Shown here in pieces: positions 4,785 to 30,757 of a stretch of DNA of 31,818 bases. The stretch's first letter is position 1. Every line of letters begins with the position of its first letter. A model generated the notes under the pieces. That model did not search any database. It was not told the DNA's origin and saw only the letters and a program-made list of their open reading frames with translations. Made by a program: the position numbers and the translations under genes. The stretch is from a virus. Where the stretch lies: positions 1 through 31,818 of the IMG/VR virus record IMGVR_UViG_3300010885_062701; one strand, 5' to 3'.

Positions 4785-5852
4785 ATGTTAATTTCTGAGT
4801 CCACGCTGCGTCGTATCATACGCGAGGAAGCTCACAGAGCGATGAGAGAGCAGGCAGCCACACGCACTATTTCCGGTGCGATCAAGGTCGGACAGGGAAT
4901 TCCCTTGGGAATGCCAGGTACCCCGATCAACGCTGGAAACTGGACGATTCCTGTGAGCCTAGCCGATAGGATGCGTAATGACCCGACGTTCCTACAGGTT
5001 CATGCTGGCGCCGGTGCAGGGCAGGGACAGGTCACCTTAAAGACCGGATCCAAGGGAACCGCTGTCAGCATCTATCAGGAGCTTCTGCAGCTTGCCATGA
5101 ACGCCTCAGGCATTCCACTGCCGAAAGGATTCAAGGTCGACGGTGACTACGGTCCTAACACTCAGAAAGCGACGATAGCCTTCCAGAACGCCGCTAGCCT
5201 TCCAGTGGACGGCGTCGTAGGTCGAAATGTTATTGCAGCTCTCATTGGAAAGCAGGCCGCGATCACGGGTAAGACTGGCATCGACACGGCTCCTGTGCAG
5301 TCGACATTGCAGGTTCAGGCGCCCAACACTCCGATCGGTCAGGATCAGACCGCGCGCGATGTGAACACGGTCATGAACCTGCTGGCAAGGTCGGTCCAGA
5401 CGGCGATCGATCAGTATCAGGATACCACAAACGGCAGAAACATCTTTGACCAGAAGATGCTGTTCGCCCGCGATAACCTGCGGTTCGCAGTCCTCCTCGC
5501 AAATGCAGCGCAGACGGCGAGATCTGTTGGAACCGTTGCGACCCGCAGTGAGTTAAGCATGATCATCCAGAAGCTGACCGAGATCAAAGTCCTATTCGCA
5601 AATCATCTAGGAGTTCCGGCTACAGGTGACATAACGAAGGGAGAGGACAGCGCGGTTGAGATGACATCTGGCACCAATCGTGAGGCTAGCAGATTCATCT
5701 ACATCGTCAACAACCCAACGGCTGACAGCCTCCTGATCCTTGCCAAGAAGCCGTACGCTCTGGGCGGTGGAACCATGGTCGGGGTTGCAGGTGCCATGAC
5801 CTCACAGTCCGCGAAGAAGACGTACTTGGCCAATCAGGCCAGCGTGAAGTAA
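4785..5852 (+). CDS. peptidoglycan-binding protein (PG_binding_1 type) with leader peptide
   Basis: This 355-residue protein starts at ATG 4785, three bases after the previous stop, with GGGAG at 4773-4777. Residues 2-16 (I-S-E-S-T-L-R-R-I-I-R-E-E-A) repeat the leader of the LysM protein at 465. Residues about 84-154 form a peptidoglycan-binding domain of the PG_binding_1 type: L-K-x-G-S-x-G-x-x-V-x-x-x-Q-x-L-L, then V-D-G-D-Y-G-P-N-T, then A-F-Q-N, then V-D-G-V-V-G-x-x-V-I-A-A-L. The remaining 200 residues are unrecognised and contain no visible amidase, muramidase or peptidase motif. It closes the accessory block and is followed by a strong hairpin. It may be a virion-associated wall-binding protein, or head or internal protein; the binding domain is firm, the location is not. 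Confidence 0.78.
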   Translation: MLISESTLRRIIREEAHRAMREQAATRTISGAIKVGQGIPLGMPGTPINAGNWTIPVSLADRMRNDPTFLQVHAGAGAGQGQVTLKTGSKGTAVSIYQELLQLAMNASGIPLPKGFKVDGDYGPNTQKATIAFQNAASLPVDGVVGRNVIAALIGKQAAITGKTGIDTAPVQSTLQVQAPNTPIGQDQTARDVNTVMNLLARSVQTAIDQYQDTTNGRNIFDQKMLFARDNLRFAVLLANAAQTARSVGTVATRSELSMIIQKLTEIKVLFANHLGVPATGDITKGEDSAVEMTSGTNREASRFIYIVNNPTADSLLILAKKPYALGGGTMVGVAGAMTSQSAKKTYLANQASVK

Positions 5853-9070: not shown

Positions 9071-12000
9071 ATGTCGGAACAAATCTTTCGCTCTCCTGGA
9101 TTCTTTGAACGGGAGATAGAGCTTACCGCCCCGGGCGCGCAACCGACGGGCGTCCCAGGTGGGCTCATCGGAGCCGCAGCCTCGGGGCCGGCCTTTGTGC
9201 CGACGACCGTGTCGTCTTTTTCGGATTTTTCGGCTCGCTTCGGCGGCCTTGACCCGGATCGTCCTGCAACTTACGCCGCCAATGAGTGGCTGAAGCACAA
9301 GGGTGCCCTCACCTTCATCCGCGTCCTCGGCGCGGGTGCAAACGCGAGCATGTCCGACGTCGCAACGACCCTGACTCAGGGTGTGGTGCGCAACGCTGGA
9401 TTCAAGGTGACAGGATCAACCGTCGCCCTCCCGGCTGGCGACGCCCGTAAGACAGGAGCCGTGCAGTTCCTTGTCGCCCGTCACTCGATCCCAGCAAGCT
9501 CAACCACACCTTCTGAGTGGAAGGGATTCCCGATTTTCAGCGAGAACCCAAGCTTCAACCCGCCCTCCATCGGAGACACCCTGAACATCGTTCGTGGCGT
9601 TCTCATGTTCCCGACCGGTGCGCGAGGAATGGTTCTCGACATGACGGGAGCAAACTCCCAGTGGTCCGACGGCGGCTCGGTGATCGATGATGTTGCCTCA
9701 ACGGATCTCAATGCTGCTTCCTCGAACTACAAGAAGTTCAAGTTCGTGATCTCGAGCTCGCAGGGCTCATCTTTCGGGACGACAGACGGCTACAGCGGGC
9801 TTCGAATCCTGACAGCGTCTCTCAACCCGAGCGCGAATGATTACTTCGGTAAGGTCTTCAACACGGACCCGAAGAAGTTCCAGGCTGAGCAGCACGTGCT
9901 CTACCTCGACTTCCCGATCGAGGACGAGCTCGTCGGTCTCGATGTCACGGGTGACAGCTGCGTCGCGGTCGCCTCAGGATCGTCGAACACATACCTCCAG
10001 AATTTTGGGCGGTTCGACACACGTTACACGACAGCCCGGACTCCCGCGATCATCTCGCAGCCCTTCGGAAGCCTCGAGCATGAGCTCTTCTACTTTGAGA
10101 CTCTCACCGACGGAGAGTCAGGAAACGCTCTCTACAAGGTCTCGATCTCCAACGTGAAGGCCTCGACGGATCCGAGAAATCCGTACGGCACCTTCGATGT
10201 CAACGTTCGCGACCTGTACGACTCTGACACTTCTCCCCAGATTCTGGAGACCTTCGCAGGTTGCGACATCAACCCAGCGAGCCAGAACTACGTCGCTAAG
10301 AAGATCGGTGACCTCAAGGTCTCTTACAACTTCGACGCAAGCGACGAGTCCGAGCAGCGTCTTGTGATCAATGGAAACTTCCCGAACGCAAGTCGCAGGA
10401 TCAGGGTCATCACGGCAGCTGGTCTCACGACGGGTGTTGTTCCCGCAAGCGCCCTTCCGTTCGGATTCAAGGGTATCCCGGTTGTCAGAACATCGCAGAC
10501 CCTGACCGACACTTCCTCGGCTCTCACCGAGGGAACGAGAACCTACGGTGCTGGTGCGAACGCTCTCCCGAGACTTTACTGCAGCAGCTCCGTTGCGACA
10601 ACCCTCACGGGCTCGATCGTTCCACCGCTTCCGTTCCGCTTCAAGGCGACGAAGGGAACCGTGGACGGATCTGCCTACATCGGATCGCCGGGTCTCCTCG
10701 AGATTCCTGACTCACGCTACCACTGGGGCGTGAAGTTCGAGCGTCTGCCTGCGACAGCTTCCATCTCAAGCGCCGTGATGAACTCCAACGATGGGACCGA
10801 GTTCAATCCTCTTATCCTTTCCTACTCGAAGATGCAGGGAATCCAGAAGCTCTACGCTCTCGTGACTGGATCCGATGCCGATATCTTCAACGCGAATAAG
10901 TTCACTCTCGCTAGGGTCGCACTTTCCAACACATCACTAACGGATGTCACGGGAACTGTCGAAGCTCACATGAAGGAGACGGCTTACATCAGGAATGGAG
11001 TTCCGAGCACAACGGACTACAGGATCGCTGATGCCGCTCTTGGTGGAAGCCGAATCACCTTCGCCTCACTGCTTTCAGGTTCGGCGAACACATTCAACAA
11101 GTTCGCTGAGTACGCAAAGTTCTCGACGATGTTCTACGGTGGATTCGACGGAGTCAACATCCTCGACGCAGCTTCTGCGAAGCTCGGGGATCGTGCCACC
11201 TCAACGGAGTCCGGTGGGCTCGCGGCAGGTGGTGTTGAGCCGATCGCAAGATCAGGTCTCGGTTACGACCCGGCGGGCAGCAGCCTTAGCAACAACGCTG
11301 TGAACTCCTACAGGGTCGCTTCGAAGCTCATGACTGACAAGTACACCGTCAATGTCAATGTGATCGCAACGCCCGGCGTCCGCGAGCCGCTCGTGACCGA
11401 CTACCTCGCTCGCAGGCTTTCGTCCTACGCTCTTGGAATGTACGTTCTTGATGCTCCGGCTTACTCCGACGCAAATGTTAGAATCTTTGAGGATTCTGCG
11501 TTGAAGCCGAACGTCACGAAGACCGCTGACGCTGTTACCGCAAGGTCACTCAACAACAACTACGTCGCTACCTACTTCCCGGATGTGTTCGTCAATGATA
11601 CAACAACGAACAGAAGGGTCAAGGCGCCCGCCTCCATCGCTGCTCTCGGCGCTCTTGCGTACAGCGACAGAGTCGCCTACCCATGGTACGCGCCGGCTGG
11701 ATTCAACAGGGCTGCTCTTGACTTCGTCACCAACGTTGAAGTAAGGCTTAACACATCCGATCGCGACTACCTGTACGATAACAGAATTAACCCAATCGCG
11801 ACCTTCCCTGGTAACGGTTTCGTTATCTTCGGACAGAAGACACTCCAGGTTTCGAAGTCGGCCTTCGATAGGGTCAACGTTCGCAGGCTCTTCCTCGAGC
11901 TCAAGCGCGTTATCCAGGACGTGGCACGTGGCCTTCTGTTCGAGCCCAACGACGCGACAACGAGGCAGTCTTTCATCGATCGAGCCACCCCGCTTCTGAG

Positions 12001-12181
12001 TCTCATCAAGGCGCAGGCTGGTATCGAGCAGTTCAGGATCGTCATGGATTCAACGAATAACACTGCTGCCGATGTTGCCGCGTACAGGTTGAATGGTCGA
12101 ATTGTTGTGGTTCCAACAAGAGCGGTAGAATTCATCGCTGTCGACTTTATCATCACACCGGCGGGCGTCGAGTTCGTCTAA
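9071..12181 (+). CDS. 18: tail sheath protein, gp18-like, copy 1
   Basis: This 1036-residue protein starts at ATG 9071 with AGGAG at 9060-9064. The N-terminus (F-R-S-P-G-F-F-E-R-E-I-E, then G-G-L-I-G-A-A, then F-I-R-V-L-G-A-G) is the sheath opening. The C-terminus (A-F-D-R-V-N-V-R-R-L-F-L-E-L-K-R, L-L-F-E-P-N-D, then V-D-F-I-I) is the conserved domain that links subunits around the tube. It is far longer than T4 gp18 (659 residues); the extra length sits in the middle and probably forms surface domains. The 65-base gap upstream (9006-9070) holds only this ribosome site and AT-rich sequence with no hairpin that I can see. A second complete copy follows at 12221. Confidence 0.92.
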   Translation: MSEQIFRSPGFFEREIELTAPGAQPTGVPGGLIGAAASGPAFVPTTVSSFSDFSARFGGLDPDRPATYAANEWLKHKGALTFIRVLGAGANASMSDVATTLTQGVVRNAGFKVTGSTVALPAGDARKTGAVQFLVARHSIPASSTTPSEWKGFPIFSENPSFNPPSIGDTLNIVRGVLMFPTGARGMVLDMTGANSQWSDGGSVIDDVASTDLNAASSNYKKFKFVISSSQGSSFGTTDGYSGLRILTASLNPSANDYFGKVFNTDPKKFQAEQHVLYLDFPIEDELVGLDVTGDSCVAVASGSSNTYLQNFGRFDTRYTTARTPAIISQPFGSLEHELFYFETLTDGESGNALYKVSISNVKASTDPRNPYGTFDVNVRDLYDSDTSPQILETFAGCDINPASQNYVAKKIGDLKVSYNFDASDESEQRLVINGNFPNASRRIRVITAAGLTTGVVPASALPFGFKGIPVVRTSQTLTDTSSALTEGTRTYGAGANALPRLYCSSSVATTLTGSIVPPLPFRFKATKGTVDGSAYIGSPGLLEIPDSRYHWGVKFERLPATASISSAVMNSNDGTEFNPLILSYSKMQGIQKLYALVTGSDADIFNANKFTLARVALSNTSLTDVTGTVEAHMKETAYIRNGVPSTTDYRIADAALGGSRITFASLLSGSANTFNKFAEYAKFSTMFYGGFDGVNILDAASAKLGDRATSTESGGLAAGGVEPIARSGLGYDPAGSSLSNNAVNSYRVASKLMTDKYTVNVNVIATPGVREPLVTDYLARRLSSYALGMYVLDAPAYSDANVRIFEDSALKPNVTKTADAVTARSLNNNYVATYFPDVFVNDTTTNRRVKAPASIAALGALAYSDRVAYPWYAPAGFNRAALDFVTNVEVRLNTSDRDYLYDNRINPIATFPGNGFVIFGQKTLQVSKSAFDRVNVRRLFLELKRVIQDVARGLLFEPNDATTRQSFIDRATPLLSLIKAQAGIEQFRIVMDSTNNTAADVAAYRLNGRIVVVPTRAVEFIAVDFIITPAGVEFV

Positions 12182-12220: not shown

Positions 12221-15200
12221 ATGGCTGCGCCAGGCATAACACTAAACGAGATCGATAGCACCGGTGGTGTAACGGAGGTTCAACCCTCGGGCCGCTCCGC
12301 CGGTGTGATTGGAACGGCAACGCAGGGAACGGCGTTCGTGCCGATCACCTTCGCGAATAACACACAGTTCACAACTGAGTTCGGCAATCCGGATGCGAAT
12401 TATCACGCTCCCTTTGCCCTGTACCAGTGGCTTAGCAACGCCTCAGCTGGAACATACGTCAGGGTTCTCGGCGCCGGAGACGGAAACAAGAGAACGACAG
12501 GCGCCACAAACGCAGGAAGCGTGACAAATGCAGGATTCGTGGTCGGCTCCCGGAAGGTTCAGGTGTCCAACGGTCAGCTCGGCAACAATCCCTACGCGAC
12601 TGCCGGCGGTCTGGAAGGTAGGACGTACTTCCTCGGATGCTACATGTCCGAGTCTGCGGGCTCCTGGTTACTTTCCGAGCCAGGAATCCAGACATCGACG
12701 GCAGCCCAGCCGATCGTTCGCGGCGTTCTTTTCGCAGCGTCGGGAGTTCAGATCACCGTATCAAGCTCAGCGCCGGGAGCGACATCTGATATCTACTCAT
12801 TAGCTGCGACGACTGCCAGCCCTGCAAAAGGCTGGTTCACCGGATCGCTCGATCTCCGGAGCGGAGAGCAGACATTCGTGCTCTTCCTGAACGGACACAC
12901 CGATTCCGCTGGTTACCCAAGCATCCTCACGGCATCATTCAACCCAACTTCCGACTCCTACTTCGGAGCAAAGTTCAACAGCAACCCACTTCTTCTCGAA
13001 GAGCACGGCTACGTCCTCTACAATCACTACGACGTTCTGGACGCTTTCGCAGTCCCAACTGGATCCGGAGTTGCAGCTGAGGCTGCGATCCGTCGTGTTA
13101 GCACGTCAGCCGCTGTCGAAGAGATCGTGTTCTGCCTTTCCGGCTCTCAGTCAAGGAACAACGGAACCACAACATTCCCGAACTACGACGGATTCGAGGA
13201 CAGGTACGGTCATCCGATGACCCCGTACGTAACATCCCAGAACTTCGGTGGGACTCGCTACAATCTCTTCAAGATCCACGCTCGTGGCGACGGTGCAGCG
13301 ACCAATGAACTGTACAGGGTCGCGATCGAAAGCATCAAGTACCCTGCTGCTGGCTCTTACGCTACGTTCACCGTGAAGATTCTTAGCTTTACCGGAGAGG
13401 ACGGCTACGCGACCGTATACGAGACATACTCTGGATGCGATCTTGATCCTGATAGCGACAACTTCATTGGAAAGAAGATCGGTGACCAGAACACCTACTT
13501 CGATTTCGATCGTACCGCTGATGCCCAGAAGATCATTGAGGAAGGACTCTACGGCAAGGTCTCACGTCGGGTCAGAGTTGAGCTCTCTGATGAAGTCATC
13601 AACAAGGTCATCCCGTCGAACACTATTCCCGTCGGTTCACGTGGTCTCTACCACCTAGTGACCTCTGGGTCTGGTTTCATGTCGACTGGTTCATCGGGCC
13701 CGTCGGCTCACCTCAACGTTCCCCTGACGAACGCGCGTGAGGCGCCGGTCTTCTTCCGTCGCAGCATCAACGTAGGAGACGTTGCCGGTGGCGCGAACGC
13801 CACGGGCGAGAGCAAGCTCTACTGGGGACCCCAGTTCGGCCTCTACAACTCAACGACTCGTCCTAACGATGGAGTCTCGACCTCCACCGAGACACTCGGT
13901 GCTGGCGGACTTTCAAGCTACACCAAGTACTTCCCGAAGTACCACACGACCTATCAGAACCCGTGGGTCGGTGACAATGATGGCGCAGCCACCGTCAACG
14001 GCTCCGTGGTGGACGCTGACCTCTTCAACAGGAACCTCTTTACGCTTGAGAACATCCAGGTTCAGACAAGCTCCGGCGGTACTCTCGACAGAGACCGTTG
14101 GGACGAGGCTGTGTACCAGAGGGACGGAATTCTTGACGCCAGCCTCGGTGGACGTTTCATCGACACAACGATCGATTTCCCGTCCAGTACTCCGTCATCT
14201 TACCTCAAGTTCGTGACCTTCATGCAGGGAGGCTTCGATGGTCTCAACATCTTCGATGCAGATAAATTCTACATGCGTGATGCTGCGGCTCGTCGAGAGA
14301 TGGACTACAGCAACCAGGGTCAGCTGAACGGACCGACGGTCGCTGCCTATCGCAAGGCGGTAGACATCATGGGTAACAAGACTTACTCGGACATCAGCGT
14401 CCTCGCGATTCCGGACACTCGTCACCCCGCGATCACCGACTACGCTCTCTCGGCGATGCAGACAAAGTTCGATGCTCTTTACATCGCCGATGTCGAGCTG
14501 AAGGACGATAACAACAACTTCGTGACTGCCTCCATCAACGCCGGGTCTTCATACCCCAACGTCAACGTCGCGTTCACATCAACGAGGTTCAAGAATCGCA
14601 GCCTCAACAGCTCATTCGGTGCTGCTTACTTCCCGGACGTGAACGTCAGCGTTGACCCGGGAACCGGCGTAGCAGTTAGCACACGCCTTCCAGCTTCGAC
14701 CCTGGTCCTCGGCGCCTACGCGCAGAACGATCGGATCGGATTCACTTGGAGCGCACCGGCAGGCTACACAAGAGCGGTTATTCCTGGAAACTCCCTTAGC
14801 ACGATACTCAACAACGATAACATCAACACCGTTTACGATGCTGGTATCAACCCGATCGTTTCGGTTCCTGGCGCGAATATCGTGATCAATGGACAGAGGA
14901 CAACTCTCGTTGAGGGCTCGGCTCTTGATCGTGTTAACGTCCGTCGTCTGCTCATCGAGGTTCGTCGTCGAGTGAAGGCTGTTGCTTACGGTCTTCTTTT
15001 CGAGCCGAACAGAGAGTCGACCATCGCTCGTTTCAATGCTGCCGTTACACCGATAATGAAGCAGATCCAGTCCCAGCGCGGTGTTGAGAGGTATCGCGTG
15101 CAGATTGACACCACCACCACCACACAGGCTGACATAGAGAATAACACGATTCGTGGTAAGATCTACCTGCAGCCGACAAAGACCGCAGAGTTCATCTCGA

Positions 15201-15238
15201 TTGATTTCGAGGCGACAAATGCTTCAACCTTTGTCTAA
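12221..15238 (+). CDS. 18: tail sheath protein, gp18-like, copy 2
   Basis: This 1005-residue protein starts at ATG 12221 with AAGGAG at 12207-12212. It is a clear paralogue of the protein before it: G-V-I-G-T-A against G-L-I-G-A-A, R-V-L-G-A-G in both, the central G-C-D-L/I-x-P-x-S-x-N and K-K-I-G-D in both, F-Y/M-x-G-G-F-D-G-L/V-N-I in both, and L-D-R-V-N-V-R-R-L plus L-L-F-E-P-N near the end. It therefore keeps both the N-terminal arm and the C-terminal linking domain and looks functional. The two copies have diverged widely outside these blocks, so the duplication is old. A mixed sheath, or different copies for different tail zones, is possible; which copy is the main sheath cannot be told here. 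Confidence 0.92.
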   Translation: MAAPGITLNEIDSTGGVTEVQPSGRSAGVIGTATQGTAFVPITFANNTQFTTEFGNPDANYHAPFALYQWLSNASAGTYVRVLGAGDGNKRTTGATNAGSVTNAGFVVGSRKVQVSNGQLGNNPYATAGGLEGRTYFLGCYMSESAGSWLLSEPGIQTSTAAQPIVRGVLFAASGVQITVSSSAPGATSDIYSLAATTASPAKGWFTGSLDLRSGEQTFVLFLNGHTDSAGYPSILTASFNPTSDSYFGAKFNSNPLLLEEHGYVLYNHYDVLDAFAVPTGSGVAAEAAIRRVSTSAAVEEIVFCLSGSQSRNNGTTTFPNYDGFEDRYGHPMTPYVTSQNFGGTRYNLFKIHARGDGAATNELYRVAIESIKYPAAGSYATFTVKILSFTGEDGYATVYETYSGCDLDPDSDNFIGKKIGDQNTYFDFDRTADAQKIIEEGLYGKVSRRVRVELSDEVINKVIPSNTIPVGSRGLYHLVTSGSGFMSTGSSGPSAHLNVPLTNAREAPVFFRRSINVGDVAGGANATGESKLYWGPQFGLYNSTTRPNDGVSTSTETLGAGGLSSYTKYFPKYHTTYQNPWVGDNDGAATVNGSVVDADLFNRNLFTLENIQVQTSSGGTLDRDRWDEAVYQRDGILDASLGGRFIDTTIDFPSSTPSSYLKFVTFMQGGFDGLNIFDADKFYMRDAAARREMDYSNQGQLNGPTVAAYRKAVDIMGNKTYSDISVLAIPDTRHPAITDYALSAMQTKFDALYIADVELKDDNNNFVTASINAGSSYPNVNVAFTSTRFKNRSLNSSFGAAYFPDVNVSVDPGTGVAVSTRLPASTLVLGAYAQNDRIGFTWSAPAGYTRAVIPGNSLSTILNNDNINTVYDAGINPIVSVPGANIVINGQRTTLVEGSALDRVNVRRLLIEVRRRVKAVAYGLLFEPNRESTIARFNAAVTPIMKQIQSQRGVERYRVQIDTTTTTQADIENNTIRGKIYLQPTKTAEFISIDFEATNASTFV

Positions 15239-15807: not shown

Positions 15808-15844
15808 ATCTGGTCCATGGTATATTTACTATCATGGACCAGAT
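15808..15844 (+). promoter_or_regulatory. 15-bp hairpin covering the HNH endonuclease start codon
   Basis: Arms at 15808-15822 (ATCTGGTCCATGGTA) and 15830-15844 (TATCATGGACCAGAT) pair over 15 positions with one G-U and a 7-base loop. The ATG at 15834 is in the right arm, so readthrough RNA from the tube gene would hide the start. No Shine-Dalgarno sequence is visible in front of the ATG. The loop region TATATTTA matches 6 of 8 bases of the T4 late promoter. A transcript starting inside the loop would lack the left arm and free the start. T4 intron endonuclease genes are controlled in this way. Confidence 0.72.
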
Positions 15845-16640
15845 TTCTTTTAAGTGCCCTTCTTGCGTAGACTATTCGACCGACAGCCTGGATTCGCTTC
15901 GAATCCACTGCCAGAAACGCCATGGAATCACCGCACGTGATCTCTACGTGAGCTTGTTTATTCCTGGCGGCCAAGAACCCACGTGCGGCTGTGGGTGCGG
16001 GACGACGACCAAGTTTAACTCCCTTCAGAAGGGATTCTCGGGGTACATTCTCGGACATGCATCTCGCGTCAAGAATAATTGGGGAAATAATAAGGCTGCG
16101 CTGGCTAAGAGCCTTGAAGCGCGTCGCAAAGAAGAGCGATGGGGTTGTAATCCGTGGAATCGAGGTAAAACGAAAGAAAATGACTCCGATTTCGCGAAGT
16201 TATGCGAAATTGCGTACGGATCTGACAAAGAAAGAAAGAGAAAGTCAGAAATGATGACGAGACATTGGCAGACCGGGGTCATCGTTCCGCTCACCGGCTC
16301 GGCTCATCCGCAGTGGAAGGGCGGGACATCGACAATCGGGACGCTGTGCCACGGCAGCTCGCGACTCTACAAGCTCTGGAAGTTCCCAGCCCTGCAGCGA
16401 GCAGGGTTCAAGTGCGAGCGTTGCGCCGCGACCGACGATCTCCACGTCCATCACAGCGAGGTTCGTATGGCGGAGATCATCCATCGGTGCGCCCCCACGT
16501 CGGATGAGATCAGCTGGGAGGATCAGGCAGCGTGGGTCGAGCGGGTGATCGACTGGCACGTTGAGATGATGCCCACCGCCGAGGTTCTCTGCCATCGCTG
16601 CCACGGTGAGGAGCACCCATCACTTAACTTTGATCCGTGA
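15834..16640 (+). CDS. free-standing HNH homing endonuclease with N-terminal zinc finger
   Basis: This 268-residue protein begins with a C2H2-type finger (C8-x2-C11-x13-H25-x4-H30), followed by a C-G-C-G-C element near residue 52 and G-H-A-S, common in phage HNH proteins. The middle (about 85-150) is Lys/Arg-rich and has N-P-W-N-R-G-K-T-K-E, like the DNA-binding NUMOD-type repeats. The HNH nuclease is C-terminal: C194-x2-C197, H204-V-H-H207, and C253-H-R-C256-H-G-x-x-H261. It would cut DNA of relatives lacking the insertion and spread by repair. It interrupts the tube to gp26-like gene order. By eye the middle part is more A-rich than the neighbouring tail genes, fitting horizontal origin. 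Cleavage site unknown. Confidence 0.86.
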   Translation: MDQISFKCPSCVDYSTDSLDSLRIHCQKRHGITARDLYVSLFIPGGQEPTCGCGCGTTTKFNSLQKGFSGYILGHASRVKNNWGNNKAALAKSLEARRKEERWGCNPWNRGKTKENDSDFAKLCEIAYGSDKERKRKSEMMTRHWQTGVIVPLTGSAHPQWKGGTSTIGTLCHGSSRLYKLWKFPALQRAGFKCERCAATDDLHVHHSEVRMAEIIHRCAPTSDEISWEDQAAWVERVIDWHVEMMPTAEVLCHRCHGEEHPSLNFDP

Positions 16641-16701: not shown

Positions 16702-17544
16702 GTGGCATCAGAGACAGATCGTAGTGCATTATTCGGCGGTGCAGTTCCGGCCGGTATCCAAACGAAGGACGTCATGCGTGACGATTTCGGTTTTGAGGTT
16801 CCAGTTGAGTCGATTCCACTTCCCTCGAACGGCGCAGTTTATCCGGCTGAGTCTCCCCTTCATGGAAGGGAGACGGTCGACATTCGGGCGATGACAGCTC
16901 GTGAGGAGGACATTCTCACATCCAGAGCTCTGATCAAGAAAGGAACAGTTATCACCGAGCTCATCAAGAGCTGCCTCATGGACAAGCGAATCAGCGTTCC
17001 CGACATGCTTGTCGGAGATCGCAACGCTCTGATGATTGCTCTTCGAGTGACTGGATACGGCGCCGAGTACAACGTTGAGGCTGATTGTCCGAAGTGCAAC
17101 ACTCGCTCCAAGCAGGAGTTTGATCTCGGAGCGCTTCCGATCAAGCGTCTTTCGATCGATCCCGTCTCTCCTGGCCAGAACGTATTTGAGTTCAAGCTTC
17201 CTGTCACCAAGAAGACCGTTCATTTCAAGTTCCTCACTGGTCGAGATGAGGAGGATATCAACGTTGGCCAGGAACGCGCGAAGAAGCAGGGTGCCCAGGC
17301 TGATAATATCATCACGACCCGTCTCCAATATGCTATCGTTTCAGTCGATGGTAAGACTGATCGCGGTGCGATCAACGGCTTCATCCGAAATATGCCCGCT
17401 CGCGACTCCATGGCCCTGCGTAAGTTTATCGATGCGAATGAGCCTGGCATCGAGATGAAGGGAAACCTTGACTGCCCATCCTGCAGCGAAGTAAGCGAGG
17501 TGCGGATGCCGTTGGGTGCCAGCTTTTTTTGGCCTGACACCTGA
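16702..17544 (+). CDS. 26: gp26-like baseplate hub / tail assembly protein with zinc ribbon
   Basis: This 280-residue protein starts at GTG 16702, with AGGAG at 16689-16693. The opening V-P-V-E-S-I-P-L-P-S-N-G and the later D-I-R-A-M-T-A-R-E-E-D-I-L-T are typical of the T4_baseplate (gp26) family. Two Cys pairs, C129-x2-C132 and C258-x2-C261, probably bind one zinc. T4 gp26 is shorter (208 residues) and acts in hub assembly without being clearly seen in the finished baseplate, so a chaperone-like role is reasonable. The 3' end overlaps another reading frame and contains seven T (17524-17530) ten bases before the final stop region; see the frameshift entry. It precedes the tape measure gene by two small genes, the slot normally held by tail assembly chaperones. 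Confidence 0.7.
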   Translation: MASETDRSALFGGAVPAGIQTKDVMRDDFGFEVPVESIPLPSNGAVYPAESPLHGRETVDIRAMTAREEDILTSRALIKKGTVITELIKSCLMDKRISVPDMLVGDRNALMIALRVTGYGAEYNVEADCPKCNTRSKQEFDLGALPIKRLSIDPVSPGQNVFEFKLPVTKKTVHFKFLTGRDEEDINVGQERAKKQGAQADNIITTRLQYAIVSVDGKTDRGAINGFIRNMPARDSMALRKFIDANEPGIEMKGNLDCPSCSEVSEVRMPLGASFFWPDT

Positions 17545-17794
17545 GGATCGAGAGATCTTCCTTGAGCAATCATTCTCACTGATGTACTACATGGGTTTCT
17601 CGTACTGGGAGTGTTACAACATTCCCATACGATATCGTGTCTGGTTCATCACGAGGTTGAACAAGGAGCTCCAGCGAGCAAGTGAGAAGGAAAACACACC
17701 GACGAGGGCCGCTCATCAGAACAGCCCGCAGGCTCGATCTTTGATGGGGCTGAACCGCGGTGAAACTCCAGCGCGCCTTCGTCGATTCACATAA
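17516..17794 (+). CDS. overlapping small tail protein, gp51 position; possible frameshift partner of the gp26-like gene
   Basis: The frame is open from 17495 and the only early start is GTG 17516, with no good ribosome site at a proper distance; the next ATG (17581) also lacks one. The first codons lie inside the gp26-like gene. The sequence is well-behaved protein: T-P-E-D-R-E-I-F-L-E-Q-S-F-S-L, Y-M-G-F-S-Y-W-E-C-Y-N-I-P-I-R-Y-R-V-W-F and a helical Arg/Lys/Glu segment, a pattern I recall from small proteins just before the tape measure in phages. In T4, gene 51 follows gene 26, so this could be its counterpart. It may be made alone (92 residues from the GTG) or only as a fusion by frameshifting. 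Protein reality is likely; mode of expression is open. Confidence 0.7.
   Translation: MPAFFGLTPEDREIFLEQSFSLMYYMGFSYWECYNIPIRYRVWFITRLNKELQRASEKENTPTRAAHQNSPQARSLMGLNRGETPARLRRFT
17521..17533 (+). promoter_or_regulatory. candidate programmed frameshift site (AGC TTT TTT TGG)
   Basis: In the gp26-like frame the codons are AGC TTT TTT TGG. The Phe-tRNA on TTT 17527-17529 can slip one base forward to TTT 17528-17530 with full re-pairing, after which GGC CTG opens the next frame. A +1 or -2 shift would join 276 residues of the upstream protein to 87 of the downstream frame (about 363 residues). No clear stimulatory structure was found by eye. Confidence 0.45.
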
Positions 17795-17817: not shown

Positions 17818-18078
17818 ATGAGCAAAGAAGAAAAGGTGCTTGCGGAGATTTTTTCGGCCGCCGGTAGATACATCATCGAGGGTGGTACTCCCCCCAAGCT
17901 GGTGGGTGATCCGTCCCAGATGAAGATTATCCGCCGAGCAACTCTCGCTTCACGTCGTCTTTACGAGGCTCTCTGCGACGAGAATGCATCGCTTGCTGCT
18001 GTCGCAACGATGGTCGAGGAGAAGCGCCGAGCAGAGCGGGAGTTTCAGCGAGCTTTCGGTCGGGACTGGAGACTCTGA
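17818..18078 (+). CDS. small hypothetical protein before the tape measure gene
   Basis: This 86-residue protein starts at ATG 17818 with GGAGG at 17809-17813, a strong site. I do not recognise the family. It looks fully helical: an N-terminal helix K-V-L-A-E-I-F-S-A-A-G-R-Y-I-I-E-G-G, a short loop with P-P-K-L-V-G-D-P, then two charged helices ending R-A-E-R-E-F-Q-R-A-F-G-R-D-W. No Cys and no membrane segment. CATAATTA overlaps the stop codon of the gene before it (17790-17797) and may be an AT-rich promoter box. Position suggests a tail assembly accessory factor. Confidence 0.72.
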   Translation: MSKEEKVLAEIFSAAGRYIIEGGTPPKLVGDPSQMKIIRRATLASRRLYEALCDENASLAAVATMVEEKRRAEREFQRAFGRDWRL

Positions 18079-18122: not shown

Positions 18123-21100
18123 ATGGATCCCGAATTACAGAAGCAGCAGCTTGAGTTAGCCAAGCAGATGCTCGAGGCGCTTCAGAGTCAGGAGCGCACG
18201 CTTAGAGCCATCCAGGAGCTGCAGGCCGGTCAATCAGGCATACATCAGGAGACCGCTGTCGCGATCGAAGAGCACGCGGACGCAATGTCACAGCTCAATG
18301 AGCAGCAAAGCGCCTTCAACGGAGTGATGGAAGAGGGCTCGAAGCAGAACGAAACGTTTACCCAGAGTCTTCAGGGTTGGTTGAACAAGGGCAACTCAAA
18401 GCTGACCGAGGGGTTAAGCCTTGCAGTTGGTCAGCTTTCAGAAAACTTCAGCATGCTGGCTGACGTTATCACGAATCCCCTGCAGGCATCGATGGGATTC
18501 CTGTCAACATTCTTTGATTACATATTTGAGCTTGCCAACGAGCGTATCCAGGATATGCTCCATTTCCGGGAAGCTCTAGAGAGGGTTCGTAAGGAGTTCG
18601 GAAGCTTCACCGAGAACACCTCAAAGCGAGTGAGGGAGACGTATGACGGCTTCGGAGCCAGCCTGAAACAGGCTGCCGGTGGCGTGAATGTCTTTGCATC
18701 AAAGTTTAACATGGGCATGGAGGGCGCGATCGAGCGTCTCGATCTCGTCCGCGAGCTTGCGGGCGCGATGGGTCCCACTCTCGATGTCCTCGGTGATGAG
18801 TTCAACGACTCTGCTGCGAATCTGTACGTCATGCGTGACGCGCTCCTTTTCAACGAGCAAGCGCTCAAGAATGTCTCAACAATGTCGATCCTGAGCAGCA
18901 AGTCGTTGAAGCAGTTCAGCGATGAGACCCTTGCCAGCGTGAATAAGATCGGCCGCCAGCTCGGTATCTCGTCCAAGGTCCTTGGAAAGGATGTCGGCGC
19001 GTTCCTCTCAAACTTCAAGTCGCTTGGTCGGATGACGGGAGATTACGTAACAGAGATCACCAAGGCCGCCGCTTACACCCGTAAGCTCGGTATCGAGCTC
19101 AATGAGCTTATCGGTCTGAACCAGAAGTTCGATGACTTCGAGACGGGAGCTGAGGCTGCGGCTCAGTTAGCCGCTGCATTCGGTATGGTGCTGGATCCTG
19201 TCAAGCTCATTCAGGCCCAGAATCCCGCTGAAGTTCTAGATGATCTTCAGAAAGCGTTCGCAGCGACAGGAAGATCTTTTGAGACACTTTCTCGTCAGGA
19301 TAAAGCTCTTCTTACGTCCCAGTCGGGTCTCACCGAGGAGCAGGCAGCCCTTGCATTCTCAGCCAAGGGTCTCTCGATGTCATACGACGAGGTGAAGACG
19401 GCCGCAGACGGGGCAATGAAGGGACATAAGACGCAGGAAGAGATCATGCGCGATCTCGCCGATAGCATCGAAAACGTGATAATACCCATTCAGAGATTCA
19501 CGAGCTTCTTCGATGCGTTCATCAAGGGCTTTATGGATGCCTTTGATCGTTCGAAACCCGTCCAGGACGCCGTCAACAATATCGCCAAGGCGCTGCTGGA
19601 AACTTATTACGCAGGAATGAGGACGTTCTCAGCATTCCTACAGGTGCCAGGCGTTACGAAAGCCCTCCAAGGTCTTCTCGACGTTGTCACAACGATCGGT
19701 GATATTTTCTCGAAGGTTGCTCTTGAAATTGAAAAATTTACAATAGCGATGTCAACGGATCCGAAGAACGCTGCAAAAAACTTGATGACGGGAATCACAT
19801 CCGTCATCACGGATGGTTTCAATGGTCTTTTCACCGGTAAAAACGGGCAACCCTCGATATTCGACAATTTGATGGAAGGTCTCACCCAGACGTTTCTCGC
19901 GGTCGCAGCAGCGTTGCCGGGAATCGTCCTCGGTCTCGTTCGATCATTGAAGACTGTGCTTTCGAATCTTACGAAAACAATGCGTCAGGCATTCACGAAA
20001 CCGGCCGACGGTTCCCCATCGATCGGTCAGGGGCTGCTGGAGGGCATAAAGGACGGTTTCAGTGAGCTTGTCAGGGAGCTTCCCTCCTTCATGCCGATCC
20101 TGATCGAATTCGGGTCCGAGCTCGTTGCTTTCCTGGGACGTGCCATCCAGGAGTTCCCGTTCGCGACGTTGTTCGTCACTGGCGGTCCTATTCTCACAGC
20201 AGCGTCTGGAATTTTCGGGCAGCTAAAAGATACTGTGATGGGCCTCTTCACCGGTGGCGGAACAACAGAGGAGATCTCTGAGGCTGCCCGGCAGGCGGAT
20301 GAGAGCGCCAAAGCCCAGAATGATCTTGCTGCTGCGCTTAACAAGCAAGGTGCTGCTATGACAGGCACGGGTCCGGATAGCTTCGGTGGACTGGTCGGCA
20401 TGTTCGGGGGCGCTGCGACAAAAGCAGCTGAGTACGGAGCTATTGCTCTCGGCATCTCATTGATAGGTGCATCGATCATCAAGCTCGTGAGATCAGTGCT
20501 GGAGCCTCCTGAGGGTGGCGGAAAAAGTCTCATTCAGCTTTTCGCTGACGCAGGAGCGACGCTTTCGACCGTGAATGCGGACGGGTTGCAGAACGCTTTC
20601 TTGATCACTGGGGCTGTGCTCGTGGCCGCTATGGGCGGCATAGCTGCGATCTTGATGGGAGTCGCGTCGATGGACAAGGGAGACCTGTTCGCGAAATTGG
20701 CAGGCGGCGCCGTTTCTGTCGCGGTCCTCGCTGGCATCTCGCATATCTTCGATGCGGTTATTCCGAAAGTTACGGCGATGATCTCTTCTATGACCACGTA
20801 TCTTAGCAGTCCAGAGTTTGCTGCTCAGCTGAAGAACATCAATTCTTTGGCCGCGTCCGTGAAACCCGAGGACATCGACGCAATGGGTAATCTCGGAAAG
20901 ATATTCTCGAGTGTTGGAACAATGATGGGAACGATGATAAAGGTCGCGACGGATCTTAACTCGCTTCCTGGCATTCCGACGGTGGTCGCGACAACCACGA
21001 ATCCCGACGGAACGATCACTGAGGTCATGGGCGAAGAATCTCCATCTTCAAAGATCGCAAGAATCATGGGATACATCTCTTCCATGGTCGGAAACAAGGA

Positions 21101-22418
21101 CGAGAAGGTCGGAATCGTCGGTGTCATAAGCAAGTTCGAGGATTCACTCGGTGGCGATCTTGCGACAGCAACACAGAAGTTCCAGACCCTAGCTCTCATC
21201 CTCGATCCGATGTCAAAGATGATGAGCACGTTCGGAACCGCAGGACTCGATTTCATCAAGACTTCGGCTAGTCTCGCAGCTGGTGGCTCCACGGCCACAG
21301 CCGAAGATTCGATGGACCAGGTTCGTAAGTTCATCGGCGCTGTCGGAGGCGGTGCGGTTGATATTCTCAACGACATTAACAGCAGGGTGAATCTATCGAA
21401 AGATCAGGTCGACGCTCTTTCTGGTAAGGTGAGCCTCATCTCCACAGTCGCTACATTCTTGGGCTCATTCGGAAAAAGCATAACTGAGCTCCTTAAATCA
21501 GTGCAAGCGTTTGATGTATCTGGAAACGTCGTTTCCGCGATGTCATCATTGAACTCTCTCCTGTTCGGAACGGGAAGCGGAGTCATCGAAACTGACACCG
21601 AATCGATCCCGGTCGAGGCATCCGACGGAATCATTCAGATGATGACGAAAGTCATCAATAATTTAGCGACAGCGTTGAACGATCCAGCAAATGCGATAGA
21701 TCAGACCCAAATCAGCTTCTTCACCGAGATATTTGCTCCCTCGGGCGCGCTCATGGGAATGATCTCGGCGATATCAGCGGCGTCCAAAGTTGCTACCACT
21801 GACATCGAGAGCGCTAAAACTTTCCTAGACACAGTCGCTGGTAACGGCGATCTCACGGCGAGCTTCCCAACCCATCTGTTCAACGCGCTCAACAGCTTCA
21901 AGGCTTTCGATGGTATCGACCTTGAAGCTCTCGCGAAAAGAGAAACCAACATGAAGGGTTCGTTCAACGTGCTCGGCACCTATATCGCGGGCATGACCGA
22001 AAAGCTCCCAGGCGACGTGGCAAAGCGTGTGAACGCGTCACTGGAGCAGCTCCAGCAGATCAAGGCTGCGATGGCGGAGACGGCCAAAGTGCTCGAAGCT
22101 CTCGATACTGTGAGACTCGACGCTGCTGTCGAAGGGTTCGGCACCAAGATGAACGTCGTGAAGAAGAAGTTCGACATAAACAACGGCGCTGTCTCGATCA
22201 CCGTCAACATGAACGTCACGATGAGCGCGCAGAAGATGGCGGAGACACTCGTCCTCGATGGATTCGTCAAGCCCAACGTTGAATTTGCCGATTATCTCCA
22301 GTCTCCGGACTCCGTGCGTAGCAACCAGTACGATTTCTACACGACAGAGTACAAGCCCGGAAGCCCGGAGAGCTTGCTCGAAACCAGAAGAAACGATGAC
22401 TCATGGAGAGGAGAATGA
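18123..22418 (+). CDS. 29: tail tape measure protein
   Basis: This 1431-residue protein starts at ATG 18123 with GGAAGG at 18106-18111. It is the longest gene here and has the usual tape measure layout: Gln/Glu-rich coiled coil at the N-terminus (residues 1-60), long helical stretches, a cluster of five hydrophobic segments (near residues 590, 677, 769, 825 and 860) and an Ala/Ser-rich helical C-terminal half. Tape measure proteins set tail length at roughly 0.15 nm per residue, so a tail near 200 nm is predicted if most of the protein acts as the ruler. The hydrophobic cluster may insert in the host membrane during DNA entry. No peptidase or muramidase motif was noticed. T4 gp29 (590 residues) is the functional counterpart. 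CATAGTTA (18093-18100) upstream resembles the AATAGTTAAG boxes. Confidence 0.9.
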   Translation: MDPELQKQQLELAKQMLEALQSQERTLRAIQELQAGQSGIHQETAVAIEEHADAMSQLNEQQSAFNGVMEEGSKQNETFTQSLQGWLNKGNSKLTEGLSLAVGQLSENFSMLADVITNPLQASMGFLSTFFDYIFELANERIQDMLHFREALERVRKEFGSFTENTSKRVRETYDGFGASLKQAAGGVNVFASKFNMGMEGAIERLDLVRELAGAMGPTLDVLGDEFNDSAANLYVMRDALLFNEQALKNVSTMSILSSKSLKQFSDETLASVNKIGRQLGISSKVLGKDVGAFLSNFKSLGRMTGDYVTEITKAAAYTRKLGIELNELIGLNQKFDDFETGAEAAAQLAAAFGMVLDPVKLIQAQNPAEVLDDLQKAFAATGRSFETLSRQDKALLTSQSGLTEEQAALAFSAKGLSMSYDEVKTAADGAMKGHKTQEEIMRDLADSIENVIIPIQRFTSFFDAFIKGFMDAFDRSKPVQDAVNNIAKALLETYYAGMRTFSAFLQVPGVTKALQGLLDVVTTIGDIFSKVALEIEKFTIAMSTDPKNAAKNLMTGITSVITDGFNGLFTGKNGQPSIFDNLMEGLTQTFLAVAAALPGIVLGLVRSLKTVLSNLTKTMRQAFTKPADGSPSIGQGLLEGIKDGFSELVRELPSFMPILIEFGSELVAFLGRAIQEFPFATLFVTGGPILTAASGIFGQLKDTVMGLFTGGGTTEEISEAARQADESAKAQNDLAAALNKQGAAMTGTGPDSFGGLVGMFGGAATKAAEYGAIALGISLIGASIIKLVRSVLEPPEGGGKSLIQLFADAGATLSTVNADGLQNAFLITGAVLVAAMGGIAAILMGVASMDKGDLFAKLAGGAVSVAVLAGISHIFDAVIPKVTAMISSMTTYLSSPEFAAQLKNINSLAASVKPEDIDAMGNLGKIFSSVGTMMGTMIKVATDLNSLPGIPTVVATTTNPDGTITEVMGEESPSSKIARIMGYISSMVGNKDEKVGIVGVISKFEDSLGGDLATATQKFQTLALILDPMSKMMSTFGTAGLDFIKTSASLAAGGSTATAEDSMDQVRKFIGAVGGGAVDILNDINSRVNLSKDQVDALSGKVSLISTVATFLGSFGKSITELLKSVQAFDVSGNVVSAMSSLNSLLFGTGSGVIETDTESIPVEASDGIIQMMTKVINNLATALNDPANAIDQTQISFFTEIFAPSGALMGMISAISAASKVATTDIESAKTFLDTVAGNGDLTASFPTHLFNALNSFKAFDGIDLEALAKRETNMKGSFNVLGTYIAGMTEKLPGDVAKRVNASLEQLQQIKAAMAETAKVLEALDTVRLDAAVEGFGTKMNVVKKKFDINNGAVSITVNMNVTMSAQKMAETLVLDGFVKPNVEFADYLQSPDSVRSNQYDFYTTEYKPGSPESLLETRRNDDSWRGE

Positions 22419-29546: not shown

Positions 29547-29581
29547 TGTGAAAAAGTAGGGTGGTCTCGTTAGGGTTGCTC

Positions 29582-30757
29582 ATGCTATCAATCTCGAGAT
29601 ACGCCCTTAACTCACCCAAGAACCTTGTCTTCGAAGGTGGTTCATCCCGTTGGGAGTCGGAGACTCAAGGATCCTGGATGTTAGGCGACCCTCAGGCATC
29701 GATGTCTGTTATCGCTCTCTTCGAGACTCTCGGGATAGAATCACCCGCACCGATCCCTCCGGAGTATGAGAGATCGATGGATGGCCTCGCGCGTGGCCAA
29801 GTTCCGTGGCCCCTTGTCATTCCGATCGGTGCGCTCCGGGATCACGCTGAACGTGTCAGCAGCATCCTCGAGGAAGCTCTGGAACGTCTCGAGGGCTACG
29901 CAGATGTCATGGCTCGCTCACGCCGCGTGCTCGAGGCCCTTCGACCCTGTAGGATCGATCTCGCAGCGCTTCGGATCTGCCAGACAGGATCGTCCTCTCA
30001 CATTCTTGATTCCTTCGAACCAGGACCTGATTTCATGGTTCAACCACCGGTCTACTCCCATGCGACCGCAACGGGTCGACTCACGGTGAAGGAGGGCCCG
30101 AGGATCCTCACGTTGCAGAAGGATCATCGTCGGATTCTGTCGAGCAGGTTTGACGGCGGTCAGATGATGCAGATCGACTTTGTGTCTCTCGAGCCCCGAG
30201 TCCTTCGCTTGCTTCGAGCTGGTGTTGCACCCATCGACATCTATTCCGACGTCTCAGAACGTCTCGGGGGGGCCGCGAATCGCAGGCAGGTGAAGCTTGC
30301 CACGCTGAAGATGCTTTACGGATCTTCACGGGCTGGTGTAGCCGAGGAAGTCGGAAATCTTAGCTCCAGCATGGTGAAGCAGATTGAGGATTACTTCGGA
30401 CTTTCAACCCTTCGGGCACGTCTCGCATCAGATCTGGGACGAAGTGGTATGATCAAGAGTCACTGGGGCCGGCCGCTCCCGGAAGCTCGTGACCAGCATC
30501 TTCTCGTTTCACACTTCACGCAATCCACAGCTGTTGACGTCGCGCTCGGAGGATTCGGTGACGTCTTGGAACGTGTCAAGGCACTGGATCTCGATGTCGT
30601 TCCCTGCTACGTCCTGCATGACGCGCTTCTTGTTGATGTTCATCCGGGCTCGATGGAGCAGCTGATGGCAATTTCTGACGAAGGAATAGATGTCGAGGGC
30701 TTGGGACACTTCGAAGTTTCCCTTTCACCGGCCTATGTATCACAGGAGACTGCATGA
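29582..30757 (+). CDS. polA: compact family A DNA polymerase (palm and fingers)
   Basis: This 391-residue enzyme is about the size of the polymerase part of Klenow. Motif A is D199-F-V-S-L-E204-P-R206 (E. coli DYSQIELR). Motif B is R234-R-Q-V-K238-x3-L242-x3-Y246-G247, giving equivalents of R754, K758 and Y766, with Leu in place of Phe762. Motif C is H346-D347. Other family A blocks are present: T-A-T-G-R-L before motif A, H-W-G-R-P-L-P and F-T-Q-S-T-A-V-D-V. D199 and D347 are the expected metal ligands, so it should be active. No 3'-5' exonuclease motifs are seen. ATG 29582 has AGGG six bases upstream; GTG 29561 in the same frame would add seven residues. T4 itself uses a family B polymerase. 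Confidence 0.88.
   Translation: MLSISRYALNSPKNLVFEGGSSRWESETQGSWMLGDPQASMSVIALFETLGIESPAPIPPEYERSMDGLARGQVPWPLVIPIGALRDHAERVSSILEEALERLEGYADVMARSRRVLEALRPCRIDLAALRICQTGSSSHILDSFEPGPDFMVQPPVYSHATATGRLTVKEGPRILTLQKDHRRILSSRFDGGQMMQIDFVSLEPRVLRLLRAGVAPIDIYSDVSERLGGAANRRQVKLATLKMLYGSSRAGVAEEVGNLSSSMVKQIEDYFGLSTLRARLASDLGRSGMIKSHWGRPLPEARDQHLLVSHFTQSTAVDVALGGFGDVLERVKALDLDVVPCYVLHDALLVDVHPGSMEQLMAISDEGIDVEGLGHFEVSLSPAYVSQETA

Follow-up and report, generated by a model that had tools for sequence, protein, structure and literature searches.

The gp26 locus and its overlapping frame

A 31,818-nucleotide (nt) stretch of viral DNA (IMG/VR record IMGVR_UViG_3300010885_062701, positions 1 to 31,818; hereafter the window) carries a gp26-like gene (16702–17544; GTG start; PF12322/PHROG_150) whose 3′ end is overlapped by a second open reading frame (ORF), here called ORF2. 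All features of the locus given by coordinates below lie on the + strand. ORF2 stays open from 17495, inside gp26, to its stop at 17792–17794, and lies in the +1 frame relative to gp26. The overlap contains a T-run at exactly 17524–17530, where frame 0 reads AGC TTT TTT TGG CCT GAC ACC TGA; the gp26 stop TGA (17542–17544) thus follows soon after the slip codon, and the unshifted product of 280 amino acids (aa) ends ...FFWPDT. At the predicted +1 slip site, TTTTTTTGGCCT (17524–17535), TTT (17527–17529) would occupy the P site and TGG (17530–17532) the A site, and +1 reading would proceed from GGC at 17531 into a domain of 87 aa plus stop (17531–17794), giving a predicted fusion of 363 aa. This domain, recognized by frame conservation, profile matches and the ratio of nonsynonymous to synonymous substitution rates (dN/dS), is referred to as the T-domain. 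Programmed +1 frameshifting that yields a gp26/gp26-T pair is strongly supported on comparative evidence, and the two products are very probably the short and long forms of a tail assembly chaperone (TAC), gp26 alone being the putative short form or G-like part.

An earlier sequence-only reading of the window had placed the downstream frame at 17495 inside the gp26-like gene, in +1, and the T-run at 17524–17530, and all of these coordinates were confirmed. It had also found no start for ORF2 with a good ribosome site; indeed, GTG 17516 is the sole possible ORF2 start 5′ of the slip in the window, and the nearest Shine–Dalgarno (SD)-like string, GAGGTG at 17497–17502, ends 13 nt before that GTG.

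Conservation of the frame and the slip site

IMG/VR was scanned with gp26 and with ORF2. The 160 matches, the window and Microcystis phage Mel-JY01 yielded 115 distinct junctions (pairwise gp26 identity: median 61%, minimum 32%). Comparison of these homologous loci, the check suggested with the sequence-only reading, showed that the T-run slip site and the out-of-frame overlap are kept: ORF2 is in the +1 frame at 114 of the 115 junctions. The sole junction outside +1 (L102) differs by one base downstream of a slip site that is itself intact, and was treated as an error or a mutant. The end of gp26 reads TTT TTT (92 junctions), TTT CTT (12) or TTC TTT (11), then TGG CCT in 115/115; (T/C)TT TGG CCT is therefore invariant, with 2 bits of information per base from −2 to +5, and the three forms need six changes on the gp26 tree. 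YTT T is kept throughout at the P codon and the base after it, and the base preceding them is variable. Only TTT and CTT occur as the P-site codon; TTC never does, although it accounts for 44% of the remaining Phe codons in gp26. The arrangement is not due to chance, given the retention of the frame and the invariance of the site. Past the gp26 stop, ORF2 evolves as a protein-coding sequence in the +1 frame (dN/dS of 0.057, vs more than 1.8 in the other frames), and its substitutions concentrate at +1-frame third positions (2837, vs 926 and 396).

A seven-T run is a typical place for both homopolymer sequencing errors and RNA polymerase slippage, which would leave one continuous gene or mixed mRNAs. 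The same frame relation is nevertheless found at these junctions in sequences from many assemblies, including those with the broken runs TTCTTTT and TTTCTTT, which excludes both processes. No relative among those compared has the two parts in one continuous frame, the arrangement that the sequence-only reading had named as a sign of homopolymer error. The explanation is refuted for the family, and its chance of being correct can be regarded as negligible.

ORF2 could instead be an independent gene translated from GTG 17516 through translational coupling or internal initiation, with no fusion made. The window does contain this in-frame GTG with the SD-like GAGGTG upstream, some ATG, GTG or TTG precedes the slip at 53 of the 115 junctions, and a few distant relatives have an ATG of their own. 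However, 62/115 junctions (20/35 representatives at 70% identity) have no ATG, GTG or TTG in the stretch from the last in-frame stop to the slip and thus lack a start before the conserved GL motif; the first start codon 3′ of the slip typically lies ~17 codons inside the conserved T-domain. A +1-frame ATG between −26 and −10 is found in 0/115, and GTG or TTG codons there are not conserved. Independent initiation, which would also leave the invariance of the slip site without a reason, is very unlikely.

The direction of the shift can be addressed from the same junctions. A −2 shift, mentioned in the sequence-only reading as an alternative, would reach the frame that +1 gives but add one Phe. 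The seven-T run of the window permits it, and at junctions with CTT the tRNA could re-pair on UUC. It is disfavoured by the TTC TTT variant (11 junctions), in which the Phe-tRNA would face UCU with a mismatch in the middle position. For +1, pairing on the four bases required (YTT T) is preserved at every junction, and other +1 relatives also fit this direction: SP-15, BRock and LR756508, where slippage on TTT_C is possible, and L204, L215 and L226, which read TTT CTA TGG. A −2 shift is accordingly judged highly improbable.

A Shine–Dalgarno-like hexamer upstream of the slip

The GAGGTG string within gp26 (17497–17502), supported by synonymous resampling and codon counts, lies 24–25 nt 5′ of the P-site slip codon. 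Among representatives of the window clade, 28/31 have at least 6 nt of anti-SD complement at −38 to −24 relative to the A site, compared with 6.2 ± 1.9 expected from 100 runs of synonymous resampling, the highest run giving 13. The Glu codon at this site is GAG in 111/114, vs 57% elsewhere. In the clade of Flavobacterium phage immuto, AAGGAGG is found at a similar distance in a different amino-acid context (10/13 vs 5.4 expected), and in cyanophages GGAGG lies ~11 nt before the P site, a spacing classic for −1 shifts, with a modest excess (17/26 vs 11.2 expected). The possibility that the string serves an internal zero-frame start was considered and rejected, since an ATG is present there in only 51/115 and is not conserved.

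SD spacings known to act are 3 nt for +1 and 10–14 nt for −1 shifts (PMC3673220), and a spacing of ~25 nt fits neither. The hexamer may act by pausing ribosomes a few codons 5′ of the slip, or may serve something unrelated. A tentative and rather doubtful proposal is that it is a +1 stimulator of an undescribed kind, and that slip direction and SD position changed together, as would be suggested by the cyanophage members of this gene family, whose string lies ~11 nt before a −1 site.

The gp26 and T-domain families

Window gp26 matches Pfam T4_baseplate (PF12322; expectation value (E) 2e-16; 60.8 bits against a gathering cut-off of 24.5) and PHROG_150, annotated as baseplate hub (E 1e-20). The gp26 protein and the T-domain were modelled by AlphaFold separately and not as a fusion. 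The gp26 model (predicted local distance difference test score, pLDDT, 86.7) matches gp26 and hub-assembly proteins in BFVD with E down to 4e-21, SP-15 ranking third, and a Foldseek search against PDB gave nothing significant. The T-domain model is helical, with a pLDDT of ~84 over the first 50 residues. DUF6760 (PF20546) is matched at E ≤ 5 by 31 of 46 T-domains of window relatives, weakly to clearly (best 1.1e-7); the Pfam model has no match in the T-domain of the window itself, nor in two metagenome-assembled genomes or 14 control genomes, a comparison that is uninformative because nothing matched in either set. We take DUF6760 to be a family from extracellular contractile injection systems.

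The locus lies between the tube gene and the tail length tape measure gene (18123–22418; PHROG_58, E 9e-9), whose product would be the expected chaperone client. The slot just before the tape measure gene, on which the sequence-only reading had relied, is thus G/GT-like, although an 86-aa ORF from the ORF list (17818–18078) intervenes; Pfam and PHROG searches with this ORF gave no match. A TAC fits the slot, the conserved T-domain and the recurrence of this arrangement in two further gp26 clades, and the fusion product is probably, by homology and position, a TAC of the G/GT type. We infer a chaperone function for the gp26 pair from its slot, its predicted two-form expression and the T4 genes. 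The frameshift could also be real and its products be structural hub parts or other non-chaperone proteins, as the baseplate hub annotation of the family and older T4 work assigning gp26 to the hub (PMC3004832) would have it. Against this stand the slot with its G/GT-like short and long forms, the listing of T4 gp26 and gp51 as hub assembly chaperones, and the fact that T4-like TAC genes were identified in 2022, as cited in PMC10885494; a non-chaperone role is unlikely.

Direction of the predicted shift across the gp26 family

Outside the window clade, the direction of the shift differs between clades. In Flavobacterium phage immuto and its IMG/VR relatives, 51/51 distinct junctions are +1, mostly at TTT CTT TGG or TTT TTT TGG; in the three immuto-clade members with TTT CTA TGG, slippage is possible only at the first codon, on TTT_C. 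A +1 arrangement that allows slippage on TTT_Y is likewise seen in SP-15, LIS04, GXN1, BRock, Alone3 and LR756508. In PA5oct, CBB, Atu_ph07, RaK2, PBECO4, Munch and other jumbo phages, the T-domain is in −1 after T_TTT_TT[C/T], and cyanophage-type relatives are in −1 at T_TTT_TTC in 74/74 cases. The T-domain gene apparently starts from an ATG of its own in L365, L369 and megaphage LR756511; the same holds for L167, and in L365, L369 and L167 the gene lies in another frame, so that the frameshift would be absent there. The sequence-only reading had regarded relatives with an independent start as counting against a frameshift; most window-clade junctions lack any start. L365, L369 and LR756511 do seem to have one, and the frameshift would either have disappeared from these three or never have existed in them.

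Profile comparison connects the T-domains of these clades: the window-clade (marine) profile matches those of immuto (E 1e-15), cyanophages (5e-6) and jumbo phages (1e-7). The T4 gp51 profile matches both gp26 (E 5e-10; hhalign 96.7%) and the cyanophage T-domain (E 2e-7; 94%), and T4 gp51 is therefore a gp26 paralogue fused to a T-domain. T4 gene 51 is placed on the opposite strand, which rules it out as the positional equivalent of ORF2. The "gp51 position" given to ORF2 in the sequence-only reading does not hold for T4 and does hold for cyanophages, where, as in S-SSM7, the T-domain is the ORF directly after gp26 and is annotated as gp51. In the deposited genomes of Flavobacterium phage immuto (L161), Mel-JY01 (L160), L164 and L166, the T-domain is unannotated, truncated or a separate hypothetical gene, and the annotation of these relatives is corrected here.

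Other features of the window

A 268-aa ORF between the tube gene and gp26 (15834–16640) has zinc-finger-like and HNH-like motifs with weak Pfam matches, and is possibly an inserted homing endonuclease. Two tandem tail-sheath genes (9071–12181 and 12221–15238) encode proteins of ~1000 aa each with 31% identity to each other. ORFs 465–1427 and 4785–5852 have similar N-termini (KITEARLRQILREE, LISESTLRRIIREE); one has LysM and the other a peptidoglycan-binding domain. ORF 29561–30757 (398 aa) resembles part of a family A DNA polymerase with a score under the Pfam cut-off.

A proposed mechanism

Ribosomes translating gp26 would meet TTT TTT TGG shortly before the gene ends. The majority would keep the frame and terminate four codons on, producing the short form. 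A minority would pause while Phe-tRNA (or Leu-tRNA, for relatives with CTT) occupies the P site and the A-site codon is UGG; the paused P-site tRNA would move one base forward, re-pairing from YUU to UUU, and +1 reading would resume at GGC to give the fusion. The gp26 part would coat the tape measure protein and the T-domain would recruit tail tube subunits. The frame relation, the conservation, the lack of starts, the coding constraint and the homologies are observed; the slippage, its efficiency and the chaperone role are predicted.

Some observations weigh against such a mechanism. The A-site codon TGG is a sense codon rather than a stop at all 115 junctions. The conventional +1 stimulator is absent, the SD-like element being ~25 nt away and not 3; a close SD of the RF2 type is absent from the window clade, where fewer SD matches fall between −20 and −6 than expected (6 vs 11.3). 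Downstream RNA structure as a stimulator gave a weak z of −1.8 with almost no covariation, and the second gene is independent in a few relatives. A Foldseek search of the T-domain model against PDB found nothing significant; with no solved structural relative there, tube binding by the T-domain would rest on analogy.

Comparison with known systems

A close parallel is lambda G/GT (also P2 and Mu), which likewise involves a short and an extended protein, overlapping frames, a slot between the tube and tape measure genes, and a T part without its own start. Lambda shifts −1, whereas the window clade would shift +1, and the G part of the window, which has paired CxxC motifs, belongs to the T4 gp26 type. 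In the window the G/GT strategy would take a new form, within a family only recently recognized to include chaperones; a 2016 review described G-T frameshifting as conserved in long-tailed phages "except T4" (PMC5009743).

The slip site itself can be compared with that of prfB (RF2), CTTTGAC, which shares the YTT T slip in its CTT and TTT forms and is one base from the CTTTGGC variant. Both CTTTGA and TTTTTGA are used by prfB as +1 slip sites (PMC12421855), and the site of the window clade resembles prfB with a sense codon, TGG, replacing the stop TGA. The prfB SD lies at 3 nt, in contrast to ~25 nt in the window clade, where release-factor autoregulation is not expected. A +1 shift is also very likely for the tail chaperone of myovirus HSTV-2 (Atkins review, PMC5009743), a likeness in both the direction inferred and the type of virus, although HSTV-2 is a haloarchaeal phage not known as T4-type.

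T4 shares the gp26 family with the window, and gp51 combines a gp26-like part with a T-domain, but the T4 long form comes from a separate, divergently placed paralogue, whereas the window clade would use one gene and a +1 frameshift. The title of the 2022 work by Vladimirov, Gautam and Davidson reportedly argues for a mechanism other than frameshifting in T4-like phages. In the passages that cite Vladimirov et al. (2022), the gp26-paralogue/T-domain arrangement of some T4-like phages (PMC10885494) and poly-T −1 signals in T4-like phages (PMC12846349) are credited to that study, and neither is claimed as new here. The sequence-only reading, which knew of no description of a T4-type TAC counterpart, is supported as to the TAC and superseded as to novelty, genes 26 and 51 having been identified in 2022. 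As far as the literature was checked, the +1 variant, the switch of direction inside one gene family and the SD-like hexamer ~25 nt upstream, kept at synonymous sites, are new.

The gp26 genes of cyanophages and T4-like jumbo phages, and the TAC of Vandenendeviridae (PMC12846349), resemble the window clade in that a T-run ends the G part and the T-domain comes next; in the cyanophage and jumbo gp26 genes the run also codes for Phe-Phe. They differ in shifting −1 at T_TTT_TTC or GTTTTT rather than +1 at YTT_TGG C. One gp26 chaperone gene would be expressed by three routes, −1 frameshifting (cyanophages and jumbo phages), +1 frameshifting (the window clade and Flavobacterium-type phages) and duplication (T4), which opens the evolution of frameshift direction and the exchange of recoding for duplication to direct experiment.
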